Shown here: in pieces, positions 1,197 through 4,731 of the stretch | Numbering within the stretch: position 1 is the stretch's first letter | How the letters are laid out: every line of letters starts with the position of its first letter | NCBI RefSeq assembly: GCF_023016285.1 | Contig: NZ_CP095413.1 | Span: 2,294,001-2,358,000, forward strand | DNA: 64,000 bases | DNA from: Muricauda sp. SCSIO 64092 | Lineage (GTDB): Bacteria > Bacteroidota > Bacteroidia > Flavobacteriales > Flavobacteriaceae | Reading direction: 5' to 3' | The notes under the pieces: model-generated | Seen by the model: only the letters and a program-made list of their open reading frames with translations | Told to the model about the DNA's origin: nothing | The model's database searches: none | Program-made: the position numbers and the translations under genes

Positions 1197-2057
1197 TTAG
1201 TCGTTCAATGCTTCGGCGCCACCAACAATCTCCAATATTTCACCTGTAATTGCGGCCTGCCTTGCTTTGTTGTAGGTCAATGTTAATTGGTCCTTAAGCT
1301 CCCCGGCATTATCGGTTGCCTTATGCATTGCCGTCATACGGGCCCCATGCTCACTTGCAAAGGAATCCCGAATGGCTTTATACAATTGGGTTTTCAGTGA
1401 TTTTGGAATCAACTGCTCCACAATTCCCGCTTTATCCGGCTCAAAGATATAATCGGCACTGGCGTTTACATCCCCTTCAACGGGAACAATGGGTAAAAAC
1501 TGCTCCGTAGTTACGATTTGGGTCGCTGCGTTTTTAAATCGGTTGTAGACCAGTTCTATCCGGTCATACTCCCCTGTGGTAAAACGTTGCATTAAATCTT
1601 CCGCTATTACGGTGACATTCTCAAATGTCAGCTTGTCAAAGATGCTGCTCTGATTGGAAATGATATTGAATTTCTTTCCCAGAATATCATTTCCTTTTTT
1701 ACCAATGGTAATATAATCTACCTGTTTGCCGCCGTATTTCCCATGATAAAGGGAAACGGATTCCTTGATGATATTTGAATTGAAGGCCCCACAAAGTCCA
1801 CGGTTGGAGGTAATGGAAACCACAAGCACTTTCTTGACCTCACGATTATCCGTGTACTTGGCCCCAACATCCCCATCCAGGCTACCACTAAGGTTTTGCA
1901 ATAGCTCGGTCAACTTATTGGCGTAAGGACGCATTGCCGTTATGGCATCTTGGGCCTTTTTCAACTTGGCAGCGGAAACCATTTTCATGGCACTCGTTAT
2001 CTGCATGGTCGACTTTACCGATGCAATCCTATTACGTATTTCTTTTAAGTTTGCCAT
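1197..2057 (-). CDS. atpG: F1 ATP synthase subunit gamma
   Basis: Central rotor stalk of F1, coupling c-ring rotation to catalysis in the alpha3beta3 head. The 286-residue length is normal. The N-terminal coiled coil begins MANLKEIRNRIASVKSTMQI and the C-terminal helix ends with the conserved ITGEILEIVGGAEAL segment; both ends of gamma insert into the head. The ATG is preceded by an AAGGA-type site. It is the last synthase gene of this operon; atpD and atpC are not in the window, which is the usual Bacteroidota arrangement. Its upstream spacer is occupied by a broken four-helix-bundle gene and heptamer arrays, so the leader of atpG derives partly from an inserted element. Confidence 0.98.
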   Translation of the reverse strand: MANLKEIRNRIASVKSTMQITSAMKMVSAAKLKKAQDAITAMRPYANKLTELLQNLSGSLDGDVGAKYTDNREVKKVLVVSITSNRGLCGAFNSNIIKESVSLYHGKYGGKQVDYITIGKKGNDILGKKFNIISNQSSIFDKLTFENVTVIAEDLMQRFTTGEYDRIELVYNRFKNAATQIVTTEQFLPIVPVEGDVNASADYIFEPDKAGIVEQLIPKSLKTQLYKAIRDSFASEHGARMTAMHKATDNAGELKDQLTLTYNKARQAAITGEILEIVGGAEALND

Positions 2058-2067
2058 TCCTTTCTTC

Positions 2068-2102
2068 AGTTATGGGTTATGAGTGCAGAGTTATGAGTTT
2101 TT
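2068..2102. repeat. Heptanucleotide array, left end of S23-type insertion
   Basis: Five units of period 7 with consensus AGTTATG on the plus strand (third unit AGTGCAG, last unit degenerate). Read on the minus strand the units are CATAACT-like. The array overlaps the end of the broken S23 gene and ends just 10 nt upstream of the atpG start codon. It is the inverted counterpart of the array on the other side of that gene. Confidence 0.75.
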
Positions 2103-2429
2103 GATAATCTTAACCAAGATACGAATCAACTCATTGCACTTTTCCATCATATTTTCTGGCACTTCTCTTCCTGTGGCTTCCAAAATTTCCAGCCATTACA
2201 TGGTTTCATCAGCTTCCTTGAGTGCAGTGCCAAACTTATTTTTGAAATCTTTTGTACTTACGCCTCTTTGTGCCTCTCTGGTATTTGCGCCTATACTGGT
2301 TCCGCTCCTTAGTAATTGAGAAGCAAGTTCAAAATCTTTGTTTTTTTTAAGTTTATCGCAGTAATCAACTATGCCACAAGCAAACTGAAAGCTCTTAATG
2401 CGTATAGGACTTTCGTTCAACTTACTCAT
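2091..2429 (-). pseudogene. Four-helix-bundle (S23/IVP family) protein gene, nonsense-interrupted
   Basis: The reading frame from ATG to the TAA at 2091-2093 encodes about 112 residues, the normal length for the S23 ribosomal intervening-sequence/four-helix-bundle family. Family landmarks are visible: an N-terminal segment with FQFACGIVDYCDKL, then SQLLRSGTSIGANTREAQ and FGTALKEADETM. Immediately after ETM the frame hits TAA where family members usually have a tyrosine (YWLELL-like); the remaining 34 residues (WLEILEATGREVPENMMEKC and onwards) continue in the same frame. One TAT/TAC to TAA change explains this. It lies between atpA and atpG and is bounded by inverted heptamer arrays. A truncated 77-residue product, read-through or a base-call error cannot be excluded. 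Confidence 0.85.
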
Positions 2430-2452
2430 AACTCTTAACTCTGCACTCCTAA
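2425..2452. repeat. Heptanucleotide array, right end of S23-type insertion
   Basis: Four units of period 7, each starting CTC and ending AA or CA (consensus CTCNTAA). They contain the S23 start codon at one side and the atpA stop codon at the other. Unit for unit it is the reverse complement of the array at 2068-2102, including the odd CTGCACT-like unit shared by both. The atpA reading frame ends inside the array, so the insertion may have replaced the last codon or two of atpA. Confidence 0.75.
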
Positions 2453-4029
2453 CTGGTGTACTTACTTGATAAATCTTTACAAACCGAAGTCAAGGTATCG
2501 ATTACCTCATCCGTTAGCTTCCCGGATTTTAGCGTATCCAAAACTCCCCTATGCTTGGCATTCAAGAACTCCAAATAGTCCCTTTCAAATTCTTTTACCT
2601 TATTTACAGGAACATCCCTCAACAAGTTTTTGGAACCTGCGAAAATAATTGCGACCTGATCTTCAACCGTAAATGGATCATTTTGGGCCTGTTTCAGGAT
2701 CTCAACGTTTCTACGTCCTTTTTCAATTACGTTCATTGTCGCCGCATCCAAATCCGAACCGAACTTGGCAAAAGCTTCCAACTCCCGGAACTGTGCCTGG
2801 TCCAGTTTTAAGGTACCGGCCACTTTCTTCATGGATTTGATCTGCGCCGAACCTCCCACACGTGATACCGAAATACCCACGTTGATTGCAGGACGGACCC
2901 CTTGGTTGAACAAGTCCTGCTCCAGGAATATCTGACCATCCGTAATGGAAATTACGTTTGTTGGAATATAAGCGGAAACGTCACCTGCCTGTGTTTCAAT
3001 AATGGGCAGTGCCGTTAAAGAACCCCCACCCTTTACTTTGTCTTTCAACGCATCAGGAAGATCGTTCATGTTTTGGGCCACGGTATCGTCATTAATGACT
3101 TTTGCCGCGCGTTCCAATAATCTTGAGTGCAAATAGAACACGTCACCTGGATAGGCTTCACGCCCCGGTGGCCTTCTTAACAATAGGGATACCTCACGAT
3201 AGGCAACCGCTTGTTTTGACAAATCATCATAGATGATCAGTGCAGGTCGTCCGGTATCCCGGAAATATTCTCCAATTGCAGCACCGGCAAAAGGGGCATA
3301 TACCTGCATTGGTGCGGGATCGGAGGCATTTGCAGCTACAATGGTGGTGTAGGCCAAGGCACCTTTATCTTCCAATGTTTTTGCGATACCTGCAATCGTA
3401 GAGGCCTTCTGACCAATAGCCACATAGATACAATATACGGGCTCTCCCGCATCGTAAAATTCCTTTTGGTTAAGAATGGTATCGATACAAACCGTTGTTT
3501 TTCCTGTTTGGCGGTCACCGATTACCAACTCCCGTTGTCCACGACCAATTGGAATCATCGCATCAATGGCCTTTACTCCAGTTTGTAAAGGCTCATTTAC
3601 CGGTTGTCTGTAGATTACCCCGGGTGCTTTTCGCTCCAATGGCATTTCATAGGTTTCACCAGCAATTGGACCTTTACCATCGATGGGTGTACCCAAAGTA
3701 TCCACAACACGGCCCACAATACCTTCTCCAACGTTGATGGAGGCAATACGTTGTGTCCTTTTTACGGTAGCCCCTTCCAAAATCTCCTTGGATGGCCCCA
3801 ACAATACCACACCCACATTGTCTTCTTCCAGGTTCAACACAATACCTTGCATTCCACCATCAAACTCCACCAACTCGCCGTATTCCGCATTGGAAAGACC
3901 ATATGCCCTGGCAATACCGTCCCCCACTTGGAGTACGGTACCTACCTCATCCAGGGAAGCGGTTGCTTCGAAACCTGATAATTGCTTTTTCAATATTGCT
4001 GAAACCTCAGCTGCTTTTACTCCCGCCAT
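2449..4029 (-). CDS. atpA: F1 ATP synthase subunit alpha
   Basis: Non-catalytic nucleotide-binding subunit of the F1 head. The 526 residues include an N-terminal beta-barrel, the P-loop GDRQTGKT at about 171-178, the Walker B region ALIIYDD at about 263-269, and the alpha/beta signature [20 protein letters not shown] near 282-301. The [10 protein letters not shown] segment carries the conserved arginine that reaches into the catalytic site of beta. The start ATG is preceded by a heptamer array rather than a normal leader, and the stop codon lies inside another heptamer array. It sits between atpH and atpG in the usual order. Confidence 0.98.
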
Positions 4030-4033
4030 AATT

Positions 4034-4068
4034 TAAGATATAAGACGTAAGACATAAGATGTAAGACA
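4034..4068. repeat. Five tandem heptamers in the atpH-atpA spacer
   Basis: Five perfect-period 7-nt units with consensus TAAGACA (third-, sixth- and seventh-position variants such as TAAGATG and TAAGACG). They fill almost the whole leader of atpA, ending 4 nt before its start codon. The unit differs in sequence from the arrays around the S23 pseudogene but has the same period. No gene is inside this one. Confidence 0.8.
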
Positions 4069-4084
4069 TCGGTATGTCCGTTGA

Positions 4085-4624: not shown

Positions 4625-4636
4625 TTTACGTGCTAT

Positions 4637-4710
4637 GGTTAACGGTTTGTGGGTTAATGGTTATCTGGTAACCGGAAAATGGAATCGGTCCTTTACCAGT
4701 GACCATTAAC
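4637..4710. repeat. Imperfect palindrome with GGTT units in the atpF-atpH spacer
   Basis: Four GGTT cores and a fifth GGTA recur at 7-8 nt spacing from 4637 to 4670. The arm GTTAATGGTTATCTGGTAA (4653-4671) is mirrored by TTACCAGTGACCATTAAC (4693-4710) with three differences, giving a long hairpin with a loop of about 21 nt. It lies in the 107-nt gap between two synthase genes and resembles the S23-flanking arrays in period and inverted layout, but is empty. Confidence 0.65.
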
Positions 4711-4731
4711 TTTCGAACCTCTTTCTATTTA

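Follow-up and report, generated by a model that had tools for sequence, protein, structure and literature searches.

The heptamer repeats of bacteria are a puzzle of about the same age as that of the intervening sequences (IVSs) of rRNA. The cyanobacterial STRR are intergenic heptamer repeats of this kind, and the REP and REPIN palindromes, with RAYT, offer a precedent in which short palindromes exist beside a rarer protein-bearing form. As set out in the part of its description used here (PMC4990558), the IVS of Coxiella burnetii 23S rRNA is a 428-nt element with an S23-family open reading frame, itself decaying, in the loop of its complementary ends; two or three GACAGAT heptamers, their number varying by strain, precede the frame, and RNase III cleaves at the first heptamer repeat. 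The origin and role of IVSs have been an open question since about 1990, according to the same excerpt (PMC4990558). TAACTGA repeats lie between genes in Beggiatoaceae, Cyanobacteria and five Bacteroidetes and are described, in the excerpted account, as direct and as having possible translational roles (PMC4679880); the word S23 is absent from the main text of that paper. The Avd protein of diversity-generating retroelements is stated to be homologous to, or to resemble, PF05635 proteins (excerpt of PMC10053308), and the legend to one figure in a survey of CRISPR-linked proteins includes the S23 family (PMC10910872, from that part of the paper). A search of the open-access literature, a scope outside which most subscription journals and preprints lie, found no paper linking S23 genes of protein operons to inverted heptads.

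The window, that is, the whole stretch of 64,000 nt that was analysed (G000:C1:2294001-2358000), belongs to a 5.69-Mb flavobacterial genome whose nearest named relatives found are Croceivirga MAGs (AtpG 92% identical to the window's). Its minus strand carries atpA, then an S23-family frame, then atpG (Table 1). A first-pass annotation had described an S23 gene between atpA and atpG, bounded by two period-7 arrays that are reverse complements of each other, each with one odd CTGCACT-like unit, and all of this is borne out. Up to its first stop the frame matches PF05635 with 55.9 bits (cut-off 33.8). Tandem Repeats Finder places 4.6 copies of AGTTATG at 2068-2099 and 4.4 copies of ACTCTTA at 2424-2454; arms of 32 nt each (2067-2098 and 2424-2455) are 78% complementary, and one GAGTGCA/TGCACTC unit stands in each array. 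Again as annotated, both the S23 start and the atpA stop fall inside the right array. What had been overlooked is that the S23 frame is broken by an in-frame TAA, the full frame extending beyond it to 2091; the window copy thus has a broken protein gene and has kept its arms.

Table 1. Coordinates of features at the atpA-atpG junction of the window
Feature	Coordinates	Strand	Basis or remark
atpA, ATP synthase F1 alpha	2449..4029	-	last codons inside right array
Right heptad array	2424..2455		5' arm in sense of S23 and operon; holds S23 ATG (2427-2429) and atpA stop (2449-2451)
S23 / four-helix-bundle gene (PF05635), broken copy	2091..2429	-	Pfam match; 112-residue frame with one internal TAA
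In-frame TAA breaking S23	2196..2198	-	ORF list; open in G007 orthologue (L130)
Left heptad array	2067..2099		3' arm in sense of S23; between S23 and atpG
atpG, ATP synthase F1 gamma	1197..2057	-	

Taken by itself, the window locus has an arm score of 17; 2 of the 36 swapped partners tried per side do as well or better. In the predicted RNA fold of the spacer the arms pair, in the optimal structure as in the centroid one; the fold energy of the whole atpA-atpG spacer is not unusual (z -1.27). The interval contains only the S23 frame and an overlapping ORF on the opposite strand (2083-2319, +) that matches no Pfam family, and neither a transposase nor a recombinase lies inside the unit. The IVS-like architecture that had been proposed, complementary ends enclosing an S23 ORF, is present, and it sits between atpA and atpG rather than within an rRNA gene: its anatomy is that of an IVS-type S23 element, its location not that of an rRNA IVS. 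Elsewhere in the same operon, a period-7 array of the TAAGACA type lies between atpH and atpA (4030-4084), and a heptad-like stretch of the GGTTAAC type can be made out by eye between atpF and atpH (4625-4731), both of them without S23.

The protein gene has a history of its own. In the close relative G007 the orthologue has an unbroken frame and matches the S23 family profile (PF05635, TIGR02436) with 95.5 bits (cut-off 24); a sequence match leads from S23 to PDB 2rld, a relative with five chains. Among the 17 copies at atp sites, 8 have lost an intact frame through stops, frameshifts or a deletion. For 14 of the 17 (L041, L064 and L069 were omitted, their atpG not being alignable without gaps), the mean synonymous difference over 91 pairs is 0.72 for S23 and 0.78 for atpG, and the median dN/dS, over pairs with estimable dS (those with saturated synonymous sites excluded), is 0.12 versus 0.06. 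A synonymous difference near that of atpG together with this dN/dS makes the atp S23 an old gene under purifying selection. The kinship with Avd surfaces below threshold: two of the three S23 proteins tested are matched by the NCBIfam Avd model (DivGenRetAVD), the S23 of L002 at 6.5e-7, in each case below the model's cut-off. No PADLOC defence family matches the three S23 proteins tested. In this genome no reverse transcriptase stands beside an Avd-like gene, as in a diversity-generating retroelement; the single RVT_1 hit, at 987450, is ~77 kb from the nearest S23 gene.

The first-pass annotation had proposed looking for inverted heptads at other S23 genes, and they are found at many, in this genome and beyond. 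This genome has 17 S23 genes above cut-off. A first set of 37 loci was drawn from it and its relatives (47 loci lie above cut-off, from which 8 orthologues or duplicates and 2 contig-end loci were dropped; L018, below cut-off, is outside the set). The period-7 match rate in this set is 0.43 in the upstream 70 nt and 0.41 downstream, as against 0.276 within the S23 genes, and other periods, multiples of 7 excepted, give ~0.25-0.33. The arm score, which compares the left flank with the reverse complement of the right, averages 17.0 for flanks of the same locus and 10.0 for flanks of other loci, the best of 5000 permutations reaching 12.3. A second set, drawn across Bacteroidota with one locus per genome (28 of 29 used, one being at a contig end), repeats the pattern: period-7 rates of 0.39 and 0.40 versus about 0.28 in S23 coding sequence, and an arm score of 16.4 versus 9.0 on swapping (best of 5000 permutations, 11.4). 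The third lies outside Bacteroidota and comprises 16 cyanobacterial plasmids, one Treponema saccharophilum and one Chlorohelix, 18 used of 20 loci fetched, the 20 having been picked by hand from 62 hits; its rates are 0.52 and 0.51 versus about 0.28 in coding sequence, its arm score 20.9 versus 9.9, and none of 20,000 permutations reaches the observed mean. In contrast, 301 ordinary genes of this genome have rates of 0.28 and 0.27, no period-7 peak, and an arm score of 9.06 for their own flanks versus 8.95 for swapped ones. Loci and genomes within sets are not independent, and the statistics ignore kinship.

A stricter test, requiring arrays with 15 of 21 matches, finds them in this genome on 9 of 17 left flanks, 9 of 17 right flanks and both flanks of 6, compared with any array at all in 6 of 139 control spacers. 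At 20 loci of relatives the counts are 10 left, 11 right and 8 both, and at the 28 phylum-wide loci 13, 8 and 7. At periods 5, 6, 9, 10 and 11 the same test passes at most two flanks per set and side; at period 8 a few pass, outside this genome. On these counts several S23 genes here lack clear arrays, and the framing is a strong rule for sets of loci and not for every S23 gene. By eye, the arrays flanking S23 are direct rather than inverted at L187 and L302, and have a period of 8 instead of 7 at L181, L189 and L139.

What recurs across phyla is the framing and the match between the arms of one locus, with units specific to that locus: AGTTATG, AAGTTCA, GGTTGAT, GGGAACA, AATTCGT and many more. 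Averaged, the unit is ~AGTWNWN, and the consensus of the S23 arms stands slightly above column-permuted controls (2.76 versus 2.59 and 2.98 versus 2.43 bits). A combined Bacteroidota set of 74 loci (the 37 and 28 above, with 9 of 13 further loci) has detectable arrays at 38 on the 5' side and 37 on the 3' side, of a median 5.4-5.6 units within a counting window that imposes a floor of four. The arrays also have a strand polarity. G exceeds C on the left and C exceeds G on the right, placing the G-rich strand inward, in 40 of these 74 loci, and the reverse is seen in 3; the plasmid S23 loci give 13 and 1 of 20. Control spacers give 9 versus 3 of 25, which is not significant, and atp spacers without heptads give 10 versus 7 of 31, no rule. 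The polarity was considered as evidence of action at the RNA level and rejected: an inverted pair reads identically from either strand, so that the polarity indicates a G-rich strand inward and cannot separate RNA from DNA.

These facts bear first on the notion that heptad hairpins are an independent intergenic class, of processing or stability hairpins akin to REP, in whose loops S23 merely sits or was inserted. The atpA-atpG site speaks for this possible, if rather doubtful, account. Of the 110 atpA-atpG loci compared, own included (at least two pairs are apparently from the same genome), 17 have spacers of 25 nt or less, 10 of 26-49 nt, 66 of 50-145 nt and 17 of more than 250 nt; all 17 of the last carry S23. 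Among 65 distinct spacers of 50-145 nt, 34 have period 7 and no S23, compared with 2, 0, 3 and 0 at periods 5, 6, 8 and 9; the two halves of all 65 score 11.6 against their own partner versus 7.0 when swapped (0 of 20,000 permutations). These short heptad hairpins have the G-rich strand inward in 29 of 34 (reverse, 2) and a clearer consensus than the S23 arms, 5.98 versus 4.36 bits in column-permuted controls. Likewise, of eight places in this genome inspected for AGT-type arrays, some of the non-atp ones long and chimeric, only the atp one adjoins S23; heptads thus occur without an adjacent S23 gene. An independent class, however, sits poorly with the concentration of arrays at S23 genes already described, and with the rarity of AGT heptads in genomes without S23: five AGT at period 7 occur in 41 of 58 S23-bearing and 3 of 22 S23-free genomes (Fisher p=7e-6, kinship ignored), the reversed pattern, also a heptad, in 36 and 7 of these (p=0.02, kinship ignored), and a control pattern of period 9 in 6 and 1. 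As a side observation, L242 and L243 (G000:C1:3541000-3544400 and 4503900-4506900) are long chimeric heptad arrays with several unit families in a row and a near-identical junction between unit families at both places.

The first-pass annotation suggested a mobile, or at least recurrently inserted, heptamer-ended element. In the strict form of this view the arrays would be ends recognised by a recombinase, S23 would be cargo or helper, and copies would move between operons. Part of this stands. The atpA-atpG site is, as that proposal anticipated, empty or differently filled in relatives, S23 being present in 17 of the 110 spacers; in G003, whose AtpG is 99% identical, a different, REP-like hairpin occupies it, and L025 and L056 retain, by eye, the 3' end of S23 and one arm. 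In L021, L022, L024, L026 and others a REP-like hairpin, GTCATTCC...GGAATGAC, is seen in the spacer in place of S23 and heptads. Atp-type S23 (54-88% identity to the query) is found only at this site among 40 genomes, all remaining S23 matches in them having 51% identity or less. The trees of S23 and of atpA-atpG disagree (AU p 4e-46 for all 17 copies; 0.019 without L041, L109 and L118; 0.009 when L039 is dropped as well). The main source of this conflict is L109 and L118, which hold an S23 lineage different from that of relatives with related atp genes. The conflict suggests re-acquisition of S23 at the same atp site, although unequal rates could mimic it. In addition, for three of the 17 S23 sites of this genome (L003, L007 and L009) neither G003 nor G007 yields a matching S23 hit. 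At L009, S23 and the period-7 arrays preceding it are present in G001, G005 and G008, and S23 is absent in G003, G007 and G004. In this genome the S23 of L009 is itself interrupted, at about position 1746-1943 of L009, by a dispersed repeat of ~200 nt that explains most of the 27 matches of the L009 query in each of G003 and G007.

The idea of the arrays as fixed mobile ends finds no support in the form proposed, and a strict mobile element is on balance unlikely. Orthologous S23 genes occupy identical operon sites across several genera, often as long residents, and the synonymous differences at the atp site almost equal those of atpG. The arms change more than the gene. The absence of L003 in G003 and G007 is an internal deletion: both ends of the gene are kept and the middle is lost. 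No clean insertion footprint was seen. At L003, G004 has a short spacer that lacks the unit. Sites in all three states, empty, remnant and occupied, exist, and no target duplication was seen by eye. Heptads are not associated with reverse transcriptases, present in 21 of 44 genomes with heptads and 15 of 36 others. None of the transposon features tested is clearly displayed by the window unit. The Bacteroidota copies lie in line with both neighbours in 61 of 74 cases and antisense to both in 3; cyanobacterial plasmid copies occur in rows of cas and other genes, some antisense to both neighbours. On the plasmids of L302, L308, L311, L314 and L315, S23 is beside cas genes, several copies with heptad arrays, in positions between cas6 and cas4, between cas10 and a cmr3-type gene, and antisense between cas2 and cas1. 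Such copies may explain the family's appearance as CRISPR-linked.

How the arms change invites a purely mutational account, in which functionless heptads arise and are homogenised through replication slippage and template switching at quasi-palindromes, with S23 hitch-hiking. The arms were compared at the twelve S23 sites that this genome has in common with G007 or G003. The left array of L002 is shorter by 49 nt in G007 and by 21 nt in G003, and that of L004 is longer by 7 nt in G007, each a multiple of 7; changes in 7-nt steps are confined to these two loci. At L017 both arms are altered (19 and 3 nt), and G007 has AAGTTTC-type units in both arms (2 and 3 copies) where this genome has them in neither; the length change at L012 is 15-16 nt, again not a multiple of 7. 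The remaining sites show single-base changes by eye or, at L014, changes of a less clear kind. The L003 deletion junctions match the reverse complement of S23 over 23 nt in G003 and 19 nt in G007, longer than any match in 500 shuffles (at most 15 nt), which is what template switching would be expected to produce. The arms of a locus diversify together. For 16 of the 17 atp orthologues the arm score is 16.5 for own and 15.0 for swapped arms (89 of 20,000 permutations); the effect is weaker, 13.7 versus 11.7 (702 of 20,000), for ten copies between what we take from the look of the neighbouring protein to be scoA and scoB, those of this genus being left out (L012, L151 and L153 have poor arms, with scores of 9-9.5). 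G-U outnumber A-C mismatches by 95 to 74 (p=0.12; against swapped pairs p=0.30) in a test that additionally took in 12 of the 17 atp copies, the other five being already present or near-identical. The G-U excess is not significant, as the mutational account would have it, and selection for pairing at the RNA level therefore cannot be claimed. That account nevertheless leaves unexplained the period of 7 and the bias to one gene family in several phyla, and it is at odds with the polarity of the arrays and with purifying selection on S23, which together make it improbable.

TRAP-like regulation, with an S23 pentamer that binds about five heptads to control its host operon, would suit the ~AGTWNWN unit, the median array length, the five chains of 2rld and the homology to the retroelement accessory protein Avd, but is quite unlikely, because arrays are detected at only about half of the loci on either side and their length is subject to the floor of four units, the consensus of the S23 arms barely exceeds its controls, being clearer in the short hairpins only, and units vary even among orthologues.

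The window unit is thus probably a copy of a widespread, cross-phylum unit of IVS type: an imperfect hairpin with period-7 arms and an S23 gene in its loop. The prevalence of in-line copies in Bacteroidota speaks for this reading, and the antisense plasmid copies speak against it. How such a unit might be tolerated in a vital operon can be sketched by analogy with rRNA. Pairing of the arms in the host-operon transcript would lead to cleavage as in the rRNA IVS, and the cut would separate the atpA and atpG messages without harm. The S23 ring protein may bind the arms or their RNA; slippage would renew the arms, whose likeness would be maintained by copying from one side of the hairpin to the other or by selection for pairing. 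A wider notion, put forward tentatively and more doubtful than not, is that S23 and inverted heptads form a single undescribed unit across phyla, whose ring protein would recognise its own arms and might even drive their formation. The rRNA IVSs would then be copies that landed in rRNA, the short hairpins without S23 dependent or decayed forms, and many unexplained heptamer repeats of bacteria its trace. The link between S23 and heptads makes the IVS and heptamer-repeat puzzles both testable in ordinary bacteria: arms predict possible places of S23 binding and RNA cutting, and repeats predict S23 genes and vice versa. S23 genes of CRISPR-cas operons, the link further suggests, may be IVS-type residents and not parts of the defence.

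Among known systems, REP and REPIN resemble the heptad units in that short palindromes exist alongside a rarer protein-bearing form; the heptad copies differ in having a common period and polarity and not a common sequence. With the Avd of diversity-generating retroelements the unit shares a homologous protein, but no RVT_1 lies close to S23 in this genome. The TAACTGA repeats, as far as the excerpted account goes, and the STRR are likewise intergenic tandem heptamers in overlapping phyla; the TAACTGA repeats are direct, whereas the heptads here are inverted and paired around S23 genes. The nearest likeness in anatomy is to the Coxiella IVS, which in the portion of its description used here has, in about 430 nt, an S23-family ORF in the loop of complementary ends, together with heptamers. 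Its ORF is decaying, whereas the atp S23 is under purifying selection, and excision of the window unit is putative; and the window unit lies in a protein operon instead of rRNA, with both of its arms, and not only the approach to the ORF, built as heptad arrays.
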